This document shows, one piece after another, positions 1,321 through 24,521 of a DNA stretch of 64,000 nucleotides. The position numbers and the translations under genes were made by a program. The notes under the pieces were generated by a model that saw nothing but the letters and a program-made list of their open reading frames with translations, was not told the origin of the DNA and made no database searches. Every line of letters starts with the position of its first letter. The first letter of the stretch is position 1. Origin of the DNA: Campylobacteraceae bacterium (GTDB taxonomy: Bacteria > Campylobacterota > Campylobacteria > Campylobacterales > Sulfurovaceae); contig JAMOOQ010000048.1 in assembly GCA_027100635.1 (NCBI GenBank), positions 1 through 64,000 of the forward strand. Reading direction: 5' to 3'.

Positions 1321-2724
1321 ATGAAGGTCAAATCTATATTTACCAATAGTTTTGGTATTTTAATATCAAGAATTTTAGGTTTTATTAGAGATATGATTAT
1401 GGCTTCCACTTTGGGAGTAAACATATTCTCGGATATTTTTGCTATAGCATTTAAACTTCCAAATTTATTTCGTAGAATTTTTGCAGAGGGTGCTTTTGTT
1501 CAGAGTTTTTTACCATCTTTTGTGGCATCAAAGCACAAGGGAGTTTTCTCTACGGCAATAGTTCTACGATTTTTAATCTTTATTATTTTTGGCTCAATCA
1601 TTGTAAATATATTTTCTGATTTAGCGACTAAAACTATTGCAATAGGGTTTGATGATGAGACCGTGGCATTAGCATCTCCCCTTGTAGCAATTAATTTTTG
1701 GTATCTTGATTTAATATTTGTGATTACATTTTTGGCAACACTTCTACAATATAAAAATCATTTTGCCACTACTGCATTTTCTACATCTTTGCTTAATATC
1801 TCAATGATAGGGGCGATGATAATATATGCCAAAGATGACCCTATTGATATTGTATATGCTCTTAGTTTTTCTGTTTTGATTGGTGGAGTGATGCAACTTA
1901 TTGTTCATATTATTGCTATCAAAAAATTTAATCTTCATAAATTACTAATAGGTGGTTGGAAATATAGAAAACAAAAAGATATAACTGTAGAAAAGAAAAC
2001 TTTTATATCTCAGTTTATCCCTGCTATGTGGGGAAATTCCACTGCTCAAATAGCTGCTTTTTTAGATACTTGGATGGCATCATTTTTGGTTACAGGTTCA
2101 ATTAGTTATCTATATTATGCTAATCGTATCTTTCAGCTTCCTCTTGCTATTTTTGCTATTGCAACAGCTACCGTTTTATTTCCCTCAATTTCAAAGTCAA
2201 TCAAAAATAATAAAATTAAAGAGATTGATAAAAATTTAGCTAAAGCATTTTGGATGTTAGCTTTTACATTGGGTTTTGCGATGGCTGGAGGAATAATTTT
2301 ATCTCAAGTGATAGTTTGGTTACTTTTTGAAAGAGGTGAATTTACAGATATTGATAGAATGAATAGTGCTAATATATTGGTGATGTATATGATTGGATTA
2401 TTACCTTTTGGGTTATCTAAACTCTTTTCATTATTTTTATACACATCTAAAAGGCAAGGTAAAGCTGCGATTATTGCAACCTATTCACTAGCAATAAACC
2501 TTATTTTATCTTTTATTTTAATGCAGTATATGGGTGCAATGGGATTAGCATTAGCATCTAGTATTGGTGGTTGGGTTTTATTTATTTTAACTCTTAAAGA
2601 AGTTGGATTTGATAAGTTTAAAGATATAATAAAGTCAAAAAATAGTCTGTATTTTATAATAGTTATGGCTTTATTCTCTATAATACTTTTGTATATAAAT
2701 AATATTTTAGAGAAGATGATTTAA
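1321..2724 (+). CDS. murJ: Lipid II flippase MurJ (MviN)
   Basis: A 467-aa polytopic protein with the MurJ opening SFGILISRILGFIRDMIMAS and about 14 hydrophobic segments. It contains the conserved LPNLFRRIFAEGAF loop in the N-terminal part. MurJ flips the peptidoglycan precursor lipid II across the inner membrane, and the length fits the family. It starts 7 bases after the thioredoxin-like gene. The DUF234 reading frame begins within 10 bases of its stop, so the three genes may form one operon. Confidence 0.95.
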   Translation: MKVKSIFTNSFGILISRILGFIRDMIMASTLGVNIFSDIFAIAFKLPNLFRRIFAEGAFVQSFLPSFVASKHKGVFSTAIVLRFLIFIIFGSIIVNIFSDLATKTIAIGFDDETVALASPLVAINFWYLDLIFVITFLATLLQYKNHFATTAFSTSLLNISMIGAMIIYAKDDPIDIVYALSFSVLIGGVMQLIVHIIAIKKFNLHKLLIGGWKYRKQKDITVEKKTFISQFIPAMWGNSTAQIAAFLDTWMASFLVTGSISYLYYANRIFQLPLAIFAIATATVLFPSISKSIKNNKIKEIDKNLAKAFWMLAFTLGFAMAGGIILSQVIVWLLFERGEFTDIDRMNSANILVMYMIGLLPFGLSKLFSLFLYTSKRQGKAAIIATYSLAINLILSFILMQYMGAMGLALASSIGGWVLFILTLKEVGFDKFKDIIKSKNSLYFIIVMALFSIILLYINNILEKMI

Positions 2725-2731
2725 AGGATAT

Positions 2732-3622
2732 ATTATAAACACTCAATTTAAGAATTTTTATAAATTTCATAATGATTTTGATATAGAAAAAACTATTGAT
2801 TATTTTTCTCTATTTGGTGGAGTAGAGATGCTTGTCTCTCTTGATTTAAATGATGATATTATCTTATCTGTAGATTTAAATATTCTTCAAAATTTTCAAG
2901 TTTATGATGATATAGTTTTCCCAGACTTTTTAATAAAAAAACCATATAGAGATATTTTAATATCAATTGCGAGAGGGGACTCAAAACTTTTACATATATT
3001 TAATAAAGCACATATTGGAGAATCTTTGGGTAAGGATATTATATATCAACTGGTTGAACTTGATATTCTATCTATTTTGCCATCTCGTGAATCTCCAATC
3101 AAAATAAATCCTAAGCAGAAGCTAAAAAGGGAATTAAGGTCATATAAAGTTCAGTCTATAATAAGATTTAAAAATCCATTTTACTATTTTTGGTTTGGTT
3201 TTGTAGAACCATACAGAATAGATATAGAAAATAGTGAATATGATAGGTTTTGGGAATACTTTTTAAGCCATTATCATAGATGTACAAGCCTAGTTTTTGA
3301 ACAGCTATCTTCTGATATTATAAATTATAGATTTGATATAGTAAGTTATGGTAATTATTGGGATAGAAAGAATGAGTTTGATATATTGTCTATTACCACA
3401 GATAAAAAAACTATTTTGGGAGAATGTAAATATAAAAATAAAAAGATATGTAAAAATGAGCTAAATAGGTTAATTAGTAAATCTATTGTATCAGATATAA
3501 ACGCAGATTATTATGCACTATTTTCAAAAAATGGATACTCAAATGAGTTGAAAAATCTTAAAACCCCAAATATACTATTGTATGATTTAAGCGATTTTGA
3601 GATTTTATTGGAGATAAATTAA
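2732..3622 (+). CDS. DUF234-domain protein, probable ATT start
   Basis: The frame called at 2828 (264 aa) extends upstream without a stop to the end of murJ. The extra 32 residues (NTQFKNFYKFHNDFDIEKTI and then DYFSLFGG) look like genuine protein and, from memory, resemble the N-terminus of DUF234 relatives. No ATG, GTG or TTG exists in that extension. ATT at 2732, close behind AAAGGA, is the best start; ATA at 2735 or the internal ATG at 2828 are the alternatives. The C-terminal half has a nuclease-like E-C-K patch (ILGECKYKNKK) typical of DUF234. The ATPase domain often fused to DUF234 is absent. The role is unknown. Confidence 0.7.
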   Translation: MINTQFKNFYKFHNDFDIEKTIDYFSLFGGVEMLVSLDLNDDIILSVDLNILQNFQVYDDIVFPDFLIKKPYRDILISIARGDSKLLHIFNKAHIGESLGKDIIYQLVELDILSILPSRESPIKINPKQKLKRELRSYKVQSIIRFKNPFYYFWFGFVEPYRIDIENSEYDRFWEYFLSHYHRCTSLVFEQLSSDIINYRFDIVSYGNYWDRKNEFDILSITTDKKTILGECKYKNKKICKNELNRLISKSIVSDINADYYALFSKNGYSNELKNLKTPNILLYDLSDFEILLEIN

Positions 3623-5816: not shown

Positions 5817-5819
5817 ATT

Positions 5820-6269
5820 TTATAATATACTTCTAATTACAATAGCATAATGCATTACAAAAAGATTGATTATAAATATAGCCATTGAAGAGGCTCTTGA
5901 TATCAGATGTTCTAATTTAGTTCGCTCTATATTATTTGTTTTAAATGCAATATAAGTGTGAACTATTGTAACTAAAATTATTGTAGCAACTAGCATTAAT
6001 TTTATACGAAGAGAATCTATAACTTTTGTATTTACACTATCATCAAATAAAATTGTAATAAGTCCATTATCTATAATCATATAAATTCCAGTTGATACCA
6101 AAATAAGAAGAGATACTATCTCAAAGTATCCAAATATTGGTCCTACTCGTGGATATACTGCTTTTTGGTCATCTTTATCCCTAAGTGAAACTCCCAAAAT
6201 AAACATAAATACACTTCCACCTATCCACGAAATAGCCGCGATTAGGTGTATATGAAAAGTCCAACCCAT
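5820..6269 (-). CDS. CopD-like four-helix membrane protein
   Basis: A 149-aa protein with about four transmembrane helices. The opening (MGWTFHIHLIAAISWIGGSV) has the histidine-plus-WxGG pattern of the CopD/DUF2269-type membrane domain, linked in some relatives to copper handling or to heme-binding membrane helices. It lies 1 base after lepA on the same strand and directly before the small membrane protein. The substrate cannot be told from sequence. The copper-resistance name is only a family label. Confidence 0.55.
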   Translation of the reverse strand: MGWTFHIHLIAAISWIGGSVFMFILGVSLRDKDDQKAVYPRVGPIFGYFEIVSLLILVSTGIYMIIDNGLITILFDDSVNTKVIDSLRIKLMLVATIILVTIVHTYIAFKTNNIERTKLEHLISRASSMAIFIINLFVMHYAIVIRSIL

Positions 6270-6270
6270 A

Positions 6271-8067
6271 TTAACTCTCTATATTAAGTACGGCCATAAA
6301 TGCCTCTTGAGGGACTTGAACACTACCGATTGATTTCATTCTCTTTTTCCCAGCTTTTTGTTTCTCTAATAGTTTTCTTTTTCGTGTAATATCTCCACCA
6401 TAACATTTTGCAGTTACATTTTTACCCATAGATTTTACATTACTTCTAGCAATTACATTATTCCCAATACTTGCCTGAATTGCTACTTCAAAAAGTTGTC
6501 TAGGAATTAACTCTTTTAGAGATTTTACAAATGCCAATCCTCTTGTTCTTGATTTTGTTTCTGGAACAATAATTGAAAGAGCATCAACCACTTCACCTGC
6601 CACTTTAATATCAAGCTTTACTAAATCACCCTCTCTAAAACCAATAGCTTCATAATCAAAACTAGCATAACCTTTTGTTGTACTCTTTAGCTTATCATAA
6701 AAGTCCATTACAATCTCATTCATTGGAATATCATATTCTAATAAAACTCTTGTTTCATTTAGGTAATCCATTTTTATCTGAATCCCGCGACGGTCATTAA
6801 GAAGTTTTATAATATTTCCAACAAACTCTTGAGGAGTAAGAATCGTTGCTTTAATATATGGTTCTAAAATAAAATCAATATTTTGAGGTTCGGGCAAATC
6901 ACTTGGATTTTGGATTACAATCTCTTCACCATTTGTTTTTTGAACTCTATATACAACAGTTGGTGCAGTAGCGATTAAATCAAGATCAAATTCTCTTTCT
7001 AATCTCTCTTTGATAACCTCCATATGGAGCATTCCCAAAAATCCAGTTCTAAATCCTGAACCTAAAGCAAGAGAACTCTCTGGTTCAAAACTAATAGAGC
7101 TATCATTTAGTTTAAGCTTATTAAGAGCATCTCTTAACTCTTCAAATTTATCAGTTTCAATTGGATAAAGTCCAGCAAAAACAAAAGATTTAGCCTCTTC
7201 AAATCCATCAATTATCTCATCAGTTGGGTTTTTTGTCATTGTAACTGTATCACCTACTTGAATCCCATCAACTGTTTTTAGTCCCATTACCACAATACCA
7301 ATTTCACCAGTTTTGATCTCATCTGTTTTAATTGGAGCAATTGGATTTGGGTACATTAAATCTAATACTTGATGGTCATCTTTTGTACCTTTTATATGAG
7401 CCATCTCACCTTTTTTAATACTTCCATCAAAAACTCTTACAAGAGCCAAAGCTCCTAAATATTGATCAAACCAACTATCATAGATAAGAGCTTTTGTAGG
7501 TTTGTTAGCATCACCATTTGGTGCAGGAATTTTTTCTACAATTGTATCTATTAAATCTTTTACACCAAGTCCAGTTTTTGCAGAAACCAAACTATGTTCT
7601 GTACAATCAAGTCCAATTGCATCTTCAACCTCTGCTAAAACTCTATCAGGGTCTGCTGATGGTAAATCAATCTTATTTACAACAGGTAAAAGTTCAAGAT
7701 CATTTTCAATAGCAATATATACATTTGCAATTGTTTGAGCCTCCACTCCTTGAGCAGCATCTACAATTAATAAAGCTCCATCACTTGATGCTAAAGAACG
7801 ACTTACCTCATAAGAGAAATCAACATGCCCAGGGGTATCTATTAGATTTAAGATATAAGCTTCACCATCTTTTATATAATCAAGCCTTACACTTTGAGCT
7901 TTGATTGTGATACCTCGTTCTTTTTCTATATCCATAGTATCCATCACTTGAGCAGACATTTTTCTATCTGATACTGCACCACACTCTTGAATAATTCTAT
8001 CTGCTAGAGTAGATTTACCATGGTCAATATGAGCAATAATTGAGAAGTTACGAATATTTTTTTGCAT
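6271..8067 (-). CDS. lepA: Elongation factor 4 (LepA)
   Basis: A 598-aa translational GTPase of standard length. It shows the P-loop [10 protein letters not shown], switch I around [17 protein letters not shown], and the NKIDLP specificity motif, followed by the domain II, elongation factor G-like and LepA-specific C-terminal domains. LepA promotes back-translocation or recovery of stalled ribosomes under stress. Its ATG shares one base with the prs stop (TAATG), so the two are translationally coupled. Confidence 0.97.
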
Positions 8068-22006: not shown

Positions 22007-23557
22007 TTATTTAGAATTGTTAAATACTTTAAAATCATCTTTACCATAAATTAATAGTTGATTGGTGTTATAATATCCAATCTGAACATATAGTAATTTT
22101 AGTTTTGAACCATCTTTTGGCTTAGCTTTTTTATCTCTAAAATATATTGGTATTTTTTGGGAGTTCAAATAGAAAAAACCTTTTTTGTAAACACCTATAA
22201 GATTTACAAAAATATCATTTTGATTTATAGTATTGAGATTAAATTGAGTTTGATTTTTGATATACTTAGAGCTATTAATATCTTGAAGTTCTACAATCTT
22301 TGATATTTTTGTAATCTCTTTAAGACCATTATAATTATCAATCCTATCAACTTGAATATTATAAGATTTTCCCTCTTTTAAATTTAATGCAATATTATAA
22401 AGATATATTCCCCTTGCATCAATTTCTTGTTTTATAATAGCATTTTTACCTCTTTTAAATATCACTTTTATATTTTTAAGGGGAATAGGTTCTCTAATAT
22501 TTTCAATTTTATACAAATCATCAATAGTATGTATTTTATTATACTCTAATATATTTTTTTTATAAATTTCAAAACTTGCATATATTGGTAAATGATCAGA
22601 ATAGCCTTTTCCAATATGTCTATTATTCTTAAATTGCCATCTATTTATTGCACCTTTTTTTGTAAAAAGATACCTTGGTTTAAAAATATTAAAAGAGTTT
22701 AGGATATACTCAATCTTGTCTTTATCAAACATATTATGGGGCAAGATTATACTATCAACAGAGCCTTTATATGAAAAATATCGCCTACTAAATCTACTGT
22801 TTTTATCAACCTCTAACCACAAATTATAATGAAGTTTATTATACTTTTTACCAATTAAATCTCTAGTTACTAATATATTCTTATTTATCGTCTTTAAAAT
22901 ATGATTTATCCCTGTGATAGAATTAGTATCATTGAATTTATTTTTTATTGTAAGATACTCATCATAGTTACTATTAAAATCACCCAATATAATATACTCT
23001 TTATCTTTTGGTAAATTTTTAATTCTATTAATTAAAGCTTTTGCAGATTTTATCCTTTTACTCTCTTTGCCTAAATTATATTTAGATTTCCAATGATTTA
23101 CAAAAATAATTAAGCTATTATTTTCTATATTAAGATGAACCTCTAAAATAGATCGTTTTTGTTTTGAATTATCAATTTTAATTTCAGAAGATTCTATTAT
23201 TTTATATTTTGAGAGCAAAGCAACTTTTACGGATGAATTTTGCTTATTAGCGATTGAACTATATCTGTATTCACAACCAACTTTTTTAAGTCGTTTTCGA
23301 AGTAAATTGAATGCGTTAATATTTTCTACCTCTTGAAGAGCTATAATATCTGCATTTATATCACATATCACATTAGAAATATTATTAAGTTTTATATCTA
23401 AAGTTTTTTGATTCCAACCATTTTTATGTGGGATATATCTACTATATTCACCACCTTGGGTTTTAATATCAAAAAGATTCTGAATATTATAAGTTGCTAT
23501 TTTAATCTCATAAGAGTATAAAATAATAGATAAAAATAGTGATATAAATAATTTAAT
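22007..23557 (-). CDS. Exported endonuclease/exonuclease/phosphatase-family protein, probable ATT start
   Basis: The track starts at an internal GTG (23371). The frame stays open upstream to 23557 and encodes a signal peptide (IKLFISLFLSIILYSYE) and the conserved family start IKIATYNIQNLFD, which must belong to the protein. The only start available is ATT at 23557-23555, overlapping the TAA of the histidine kinase. The product is 516 aa. Catalytic motifs are ADIIALQEVEN, ILGDFNSNYDE and KGYSDHLPIYASF, typical of DNase I-like phosphodiesterases. A beta-rich domain follows the catalytic part. It is probably a periplasmic or secreted nuclease. Confidence 0.75.
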   Translation of the reverse strand: MKLFISLFLSIILYSYEIKIATYNIQNLFDIKTQGGEYSRYIPHKNGWNQKTLDIKLNNISNVICDINADIIALQEVENINAFNLLRKRLKKVGCEYRYSSIANKQNSSVKVALLSKYKIIESSEIKIDNSKQKRSILEVHLNIENNSLIIFVNHWKSKYNLGKESKRIKSAKALINRIKNLPKDKEYIILGDFNSNYDEYLTIKNKFNDTNSITGINHILKTINKNILVTRDLIGKKYNKLHYNLWLEVDKNSRFSRRYFSYKGSVDSIILPHNMFDKDKIEYILNSFNIFKPRYLFTKKGAINRWQFKNNRHIGKGYSDHLPIYASFEIYKKNILEYNKIHTIDDLYKIENIREPIPLKNIKVIFKRGKNAIIKQEIDARGIYLYNIALNLKEGKSYNIQVDRIDNYNGLKEITKISKIVELQDINSSKYIKNQTQFNLNTINQNDIFVNLIGVYKKGFFYLNSQKIPIYFRDKKAKPKDGSKLKLLYVQIGYYNTNQLLIYGKDDFKVFNNSK

Positions 23558-24521
23558 TTATTAAGCTTTTTTGTTGATATATAGGTATTTTAAAGGTAAA
23601 TATTGCCCCATCATCACTATTTTCTACCGATATTGTACCTTGATATTTATTTGCAATTTGCATACTTAAATATAATCCAATACCTGTACCTTTCCCGCTT
23701 GGTTTTGTAGTAACATTTGGCTTAAATATTTCATCTATTATATTTGTTGGAATCCCACCTGCATTATCTTGAAAATATATATTTAGATATTGCTTATAAA
23801 TTTTAGAACTTATTTTAATTCTTCTATTTTTTATATCTTTTTCATTAAAAGCATCTTTTGAATTATTTATCATATTTAGCATAAGATGCTTAATATCATT
23901 CTCTTTTGCTTGAATAAGATGATCTGTATCAATTATCACTTCTATTGCAATATTATTTTTCATAAATTCATCTTTAACTAATAATAAAACAGAATCAATC
24001 GTTTTATTTATATTAAAAACTTCTATATTTTGCTCTTCTCTAAAAAAACCTCTAAACTCATCTAATGTTTTTACCATATGATGGACTTGCAACATCGTAC
24101 CCTCTAAAAAATTATCAATATACTCTTGATCCACAATACCATCTTCAAAGTCACTTCTTAACAACTCTTCATACATAGTAATGGCATTTAATGGTTGTTT
24201 CCATTGATGAGCCACAGCATCCATCATTTCACCCATAGCTGCCATTTTGGTTTGTTGTTCTAAAATCTTTTCTTGTTGTACTCGCCTCGTTAATTCCTCT
24301 GCGATTCTATCTTCAAGAGAATCATTTAAATCTTTTAATTTCTTTTCTATAATATGATTAGTATTTATCTCTTTTTTTAACATATAATTAATATATAGAG
24401 TAATTGAAGATACAATAGATAATATTGATATCAGTAACATATCTTCATCCATCTGCAATATATTCTCAAATAAAATTCCAATAGATGTGATAATTAATAC
24501 TAATATAATTAAAAATTTCAT
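23553..24521 (-). CDS. Sensor histidine kinase
   Basis: A 322-aa protein with two N-terminal transmembrane helices and almost no periplasmic loop, then a coiled coil. The dimerisation domain has phospho-acceptor AVAHQWKQPLNA, and the ATPase has an N box NMINNSKDAF, DNAGGIP and GKGTGIGLYLS. No response regulator is nearby, so it is an orphan kinase. The lack of a sensor loop suggests it senses within the membrane or cytoplasm. Its stop overlaps the start of the exonuclease-family gene. Confidence 0.9.
   Translation of the reverse strand: MKFLIILVLIITSIGILFENILQMDEDMLLISILSIVSSITLYINYMLKKEINTNHIIEKKLKDLNDSLEDRIAEELTRRVQQEKILEQQTKMAAMGEMMDAVAHQWKQPLNAITMYEELLRSDFEDGIVDQEYIDNFLEGTMLQVHHMVKTLDEFRGFFREEQNIEVFNINKTIDSVLLLVKDEFMKNNIAIEVIIDTDHLIQAKENDIKHLMLNMINNSKDAFNEKDIKNRRIKISSKIYKQYLNIYFQDNAGGIPTNIIDEIFKPNVTTKPSGKGTGIGLYLSMQIANKYQGTISVENSDDGAIFTFKIPIYQQKSLIN

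Follow-up and report, generated by a model that had tools for sequence, protein, structure and literature searches.

A probable AUU start codon in a secreted nuclease gene, and rare AUH starts in Sulfurovum-like Campylobacterota

Where does translation begin when the conserved N-terminus of a protein lies far upstream of the first ATG, GTG or TTG of its gene? A secreted nuclease of a Sulfurovaceae bacterium raises this question. Its gene lies in a stretch of 64,000 nucleotides that we analysed as a whole and call the window. The reading frame opens with ATT, one of the AUH codons (AUA, AUC or AUU, H being A, C or U). To our knowledge, very few bacterial genes are known to begin with an AUH codon. 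Annotation that is restricted to ATG, GTG and TTG shortens or misses proteins that start in this way.

Table 1. Coordinates of the nuclease gene, its neighbour and the DUF234 gene in the window
Feature	Position	Strand	Remarks
ATT start codon of the nuclease gene	23555..23557	-	directly after TAATAA; aligns with the ATG/GTG/TTG starts of 29 relatives
Secreted endonuclease/exonuclease/phosphatase-family protein, 516 codons	22007..23557	-	PF19580 at 75 bits; 91/94 near-invariant residues kept
Probable signal peptide (M)KLFISLFLSIILYSY	23507..23557	-	short basic and hydrophobic stretch; one of similar kind in all relatives read
Histidine kinase, TAA overlaps the nuclease ATT	23553..24521	-	HATPase_c 58.5 bits; proposed source of re-initiating ribosomes
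DUF234 gene, ATA start	2735..3622	+	PF03008; no canonical start before codon 32 counted from ATA
AAAGGA Shine-Dalgarno (SD) of the DUF234 gene	2723..2728	+	6 nt before ATA; overlaps the murJ stop; duplex energy -4.7 kcal/mol

The nuclease gene and its first codon

Read on the minus strand, the nuclease frame runs ...GCT TAA TAA ATT AAA TTA TTT ATA TCA, and from ATT onwards it reads IKLFISLFLSIILYSYEIKIATYNIQNLFD. ATT (23557-23555) is codon 1 of this frame. Two stops (TAATAA) lie immediately upstream in the same frame and rule out a longer N-terminus. Downstream, the next in-frame ATG, GTG or TTG is a GTG at nt +186 (codon 63, position 23371).

The protein matches PF19580 over residues 20-328 with 75.3 bits, above the Pfam cut-off of 27 bits. 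Its match to the ExeM/NucH extracellular DNase covers part of the profile only and, at 55.3 bits, falls below the NCBIfam cut-off of 300 bits. A search for a solved relative returned only weak matches to TDP2, which are uninformative on the start.

More can be learned from the 29 relatives of the gene. In all of them an ATG, GTG or TTG aligns with ATT or lies no more than a few codons away. After this canonical start come a signal peptide, made up of a short basic and hydrophobic stretch, and then the motif (A)(T/S)YN(V/I)xNLFD. Since the nuclease shares the signal peptide and catalytic motif that follow, its ATT takes the place of a conserved start codon. The signal peptide of the nuclease was judged by eye and is probable.

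A column of the alignment was taken as near-invariant when it is identical in at least 27 of the 29 relatives, which gives 94 columns. The nuclease keeps 91 of these, and 14 of the kept ones precede the GTG at codon 63. They include Y23, N24 and N27 of motif 1, whose Asn is presumably catalytic. With these 14 residues lost, a protein started at GTG would therefore lack its secretion signal and part of the catalytic site.

The gene thus has no canonical codon at or upstream of its conserved N-terminus, and its AUH codon aligns with the starts of its orthologues. These alignments leave ATT as the single plausible start of the nuclease gene, which is intact and conserved. The initial annotation had argued that the nuclease needs its upstream residues and that ATT is the sole possible start; the stops directly 5' of ATT, the distance to the next canonical codon and the conserved residues in between bear it out on both points.

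The ATT itself is not conserved, because none of the 29 relatives read has a non-canonical start in this gene; in this it differs from AUH starts of the ccpN and infC type. A scan of genome contigs found no near relatives of the nuclease, and its ATT is known from a single MAG. The nuclease ATT is species-specific. Since it stands in one MAG only, the nuclease is a weaker case than the other AUH genes described below. The 22 nt preceding the nuclease ATT showed no SD pairing, whereas the other AUH genes here do have an SD. About 12% of the canonical starts in the source genome likewise lack one.

AUH starts in other genes of the genome and its relatives

The initial annotation hinted that ATT starts may be used more widely in this organism. 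Our scan for N-termini beyond the first ATG, GTG or TTG covered 707 kb of the source genome, the window plus 643 kb outside it (about 44% of the genome, as stretches), and was compared with 1.6 Mb from three related genomes. The proteome scan used an overlap filter against antisense shadow ORFs, although a few of these remain in both totals (397 and 509 genes). A gene was counted as an AUH case if homology extended well upstream of its first canonical start and an AUH codon stood at or near the expected start.

Six of the 397 genes with homologues (about 1.5% of testable genes) appear to be AUH-started. They are the nuclease (ATT), the DUF234 gene of the window (ATA), a second DUF234 gene (L126), tsaD (ATA), a DEAD-box helicase (ATT) and a PabC-like gene (ATA or ATT). 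The reference genomes yielded two cases among 509 genes, a DUF234 gene and an MBOAT-like gene (ATT). With counts this small and gene sets that are not the same, we claim no significant difference between 6/397 and 2/509. GC content is 28.7% in the source genome vs 43-44% in the reference genomes. The expected wider use holds in part: tsaD, the helicase, both DUF234 genes and the PabC-like gene lack canonical starts, but ATT is not specifically spread. AUA is as frequent here, and AUC in the relatives.

The DUF234 gene had been taken for a second ATT gene. It does lack a canonical start, but alignment and SD spacing place its start at ATA (2735-2737). The ATT, one codon before it and nearer the SD, is out of register with the relatives and was dropped. 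We compared the gene with two overlapping sets. One comprises 29 relatives taken from whole genomes, the other 80 records that belong to a second collection and are named mostly Sulfurovum, Sulfurovaceae or Campylobacteraceae. In the whole-genome relatives the start-aligned codon is nearly always AUH. The 80 records and the window gene together have ATC in 35 cases, ATT in 23, ATA in 21, and ATG and TTG in one each. AUH is thus conserved at this codon in 79 of 81 sequences, and 57 of the 81 have no ATG, GTG or TTG from the upstream stop through codon +8. In several members only 2-3 codons separate the upstream stop from AUH, and hence no other start is available. An SD of ordinary strength usually lies 3-9 nt before the AUH. 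Two single-contig genomes (G026 and G034, 100 and 99% complete) have AUH at this position as well, so that it is not an artefact of draft assembly. DUF234 offers a clean natural system for asking what maintains a weak start in evolution and whether such a start is under the control of IF3. Conserved across Sulfurovaceae (L271-L350), this start merits study apart from the nuclease.

The DEAD-box helicase (RhlE-like; L120 5717 (+), with L232 and L233) starts with ATT in the source genome. Its start is ATA in G001 (78% identical) and in G066 (other family, 44%). Each of these three genomes has an AAAGGA-like SD and no canonical start; it is on these three that the absence of an upstream canonical start rests. 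Five more cases come from pattern matches placed exactly at the start coordinates, with ATC in G049, G282 and G170, and ATA in G159 and G250. The AUH start of the helicase is thus conserved in at least 8 genomes of two families. Because AUH recurs in many related genomes, sequencing error cannot explain it in DUF234 and the helicase.

The product of tsaD modifies tRNA, and many bacteria cannot live without it. In the source genome (L092 5185 (+)) the gene reads AAAAAAGGATATATT-ATA-ATA-TTA, and the first canonical codon is at ORF index 95. Its relatives mostly have ATG at the same place (MILSIESSCDD), others TTG or a nearby ATG; ATA occurs in the source genome only. Barring an assembly error at tsaD, the organism must therefore be able to use an AUA start.

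Some further genes were noted along the way. In the PabC-like aminotransferase (L106, minus-strand ORF 1671-2288) the start is ATA or ATT, and canonical codons are absent up to position 61; one relative (L259) likewise lacks them near its N-terminus. The MBOAT-like gene, named from our reading of the sequence (L155, minus-strand ORF 5817-7266, in the single-contig reference G026), has ATT where a relative has ATG, with AAAGG upstream. A response-regulator ORF (L112, minus-strand 7631-8024) and a DUF1566-like ORF (L107, 98-518 +) have no usable starts. These two may be fragments or further non-canonical cases and were left out of the AUH count.

Judged from sequence, AUH starts are a real, if rare, feature of the Sulfurovum-like group. 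We read the strong conservation in the DUF234 and helicase families as a sign that AUH is kept there for low or IF3-responsive expression, a purpose that we infer. In the source lineage, on our reading, AT-biased mutation may have turned the AUG of a few more genes into AUA or AUU. A more general proposal is tentative, and we think it rather doubtful: Sulfurovum-group Campylobacterota would keep a set of AUH genes (DUF234, DEAD-box helicase) in which selection against a third-base G lets the IF3 level set translation, and low-GC lineages would recruit more genes into this set (tsaD, the nuclease).

The kinase junction and rival explanations

The gene upstream of the nuclease encodes a histidine kinase. 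Its 3' end reads ...AAA AGC TTA ATA AAT TAA on the minus strand, with the stop at 23555-23553. Base 23555 is common to the kinase TAA and the nuclease ATT, as the initial annotation had seen in the string AATTAA. The two genes overlap by this one base (ATTAA), and start and stop are as close as in a translationally coupled pair. Among 30 loci compared, the kinase adjoins the nuclease only in the source genome; hence the arrangement is probably young.

We propose re-initiation because the nuclease start lacks an SD and overlaps the kinase stop by one base. After termination at this stop, ribosomes would re-initiate at the overlapping AUU, which would be read by initiator fMet-tRNA. In E. coli, an SD is not indispensable for re-initiation, but in its absence an excess of IF3 is inhibitory; as the authors also note, non-canonical starts are inhibited when IF3 is raised (PMC2268962). 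Taken together with the non-canonical start, this leads us to expect that the nuclease is weakly expressed and tied to kinase translation, and its expression would be sensitive to IF3. Thus we consider it likely that AUU is a working weak start of an intact secreted nuclease, used by re-initiation after the kinase, and that the gene belongs to a small set of AUH genes. If this reading is true, the nuclease provides a natural example of re-initiation at AUU with no SD.

Alternatively, the start may have been lost recently, by mutation or by rearrangement beside the kinase, leaving a nearly silent gene on its way to becoming a pseudogene. The ATT is conserved in no relative, the kinase neighbourhood is unique to the source genome and there is no SD, all of which would fit such decay. 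However, a frame of 516 codons has stayed open in a genome of about 28% GC, and nearly all near-invariant residues are kept. Furthermore, other genes here, tsaD included, work with AUH or must be lost too. We regard decay as unlikely.

Still less probable is a consensus error that hides a true ATG, GTG or TTG. The nuclease ATT comes from one MAG, and the source genome is a draft (57 contigs, 77% complete). Yet an error that struck precisely this codon has a low prior probability, and the assembly contains further genes whose AUH starts recur in independent genomes.

We give little credence to a general relaxation of start-codon discrimination, in which a changed IF3, initiator tRNA or ribosome would make AUH efficient everywhere in this organism. 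The higher share of AUH genes here than in the references points in this direction, with counts too small for a firm difference. Against it, a canonical codon (ATG, TTG or GTG) stands close to the expected start in 353 of the 397 genes, and DUF234 has AUH starts in genomes of normal GC too. A changed IF3, which the initial annotation had raised, was rejected, since infC encodes a full-length IF3 of ordinary sequence; it starts with TTG, as in most relatives read.

Translation from the GTG at codon 63, the first canonical in-frame codon, or a +1 frameshift at the kinase end (AAT TAA), which does enter the nuclease frame and would fuse the two proteins, is the least credible account, as the GTG product would lack the signal peptide and the 14 conserved residues with the motif-1 Asn, and a fusion would bury the signal peptide and join genes that are adjacent in no relative.

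Comparison with known systems

We return to the preferred reading, a weak AUU start used after termination on the kinase. Its closest parallel at the junction is translational coupling of the ATGA type, where start and stop also share bases and re-initiation is possible without an SD (PMC2268962). In the nuclease, however, the overlap is ATTAA, a single base, and AUU stands in place of AUG.

The best-known AUH start is that of infC, AUU in E. coli and AUA in S. aureus (PMC13009471). It resembles the starts described here in its AUH codon, in weak initiation and in discrimination by IF3. There, infC autoregulates IF3 through its start, whereas infC here starts with TTG and the nuclease has no SD. 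Three more genes, ccpN (AUA), cvfC1 (AUU) and citZ (AUA), reach about 10% of the expression from AUG, and ccpN up to 30% in rich medium (PMC13009471). The conserved AUH codons of ccpN and cvfC1 in Firmicutes are preceded by an SD, as in DUF234 and the helicase. The genes and the phylum differ, and the SD is unusually extended there and ordinary here. Initiation at ccpN and cvfC1 has been shown by experiment, whereas for the AUH genes here it is predicted from sequence.

In Streptomyces, sigR has a GUC start that is under the control of IF3 and repressed by it (PMC5472188). The likeness lies in a rare start codon that holds expression down. The codon is GUC there and AUH here, and the regulatory role that was shown for sigR is only proposed for our genes. 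A survey of start-codon switches counted two switches to AUU among about 66,000 AUG or GUG starts (PMC5622118). The literature searched contained no papers on AUH starts in Campylobacterota or for DUF234. Hence the class of mechanism is already known, and the genes described here, as well as the group that carries them, the Campylobacterota, appear to be new members of it.
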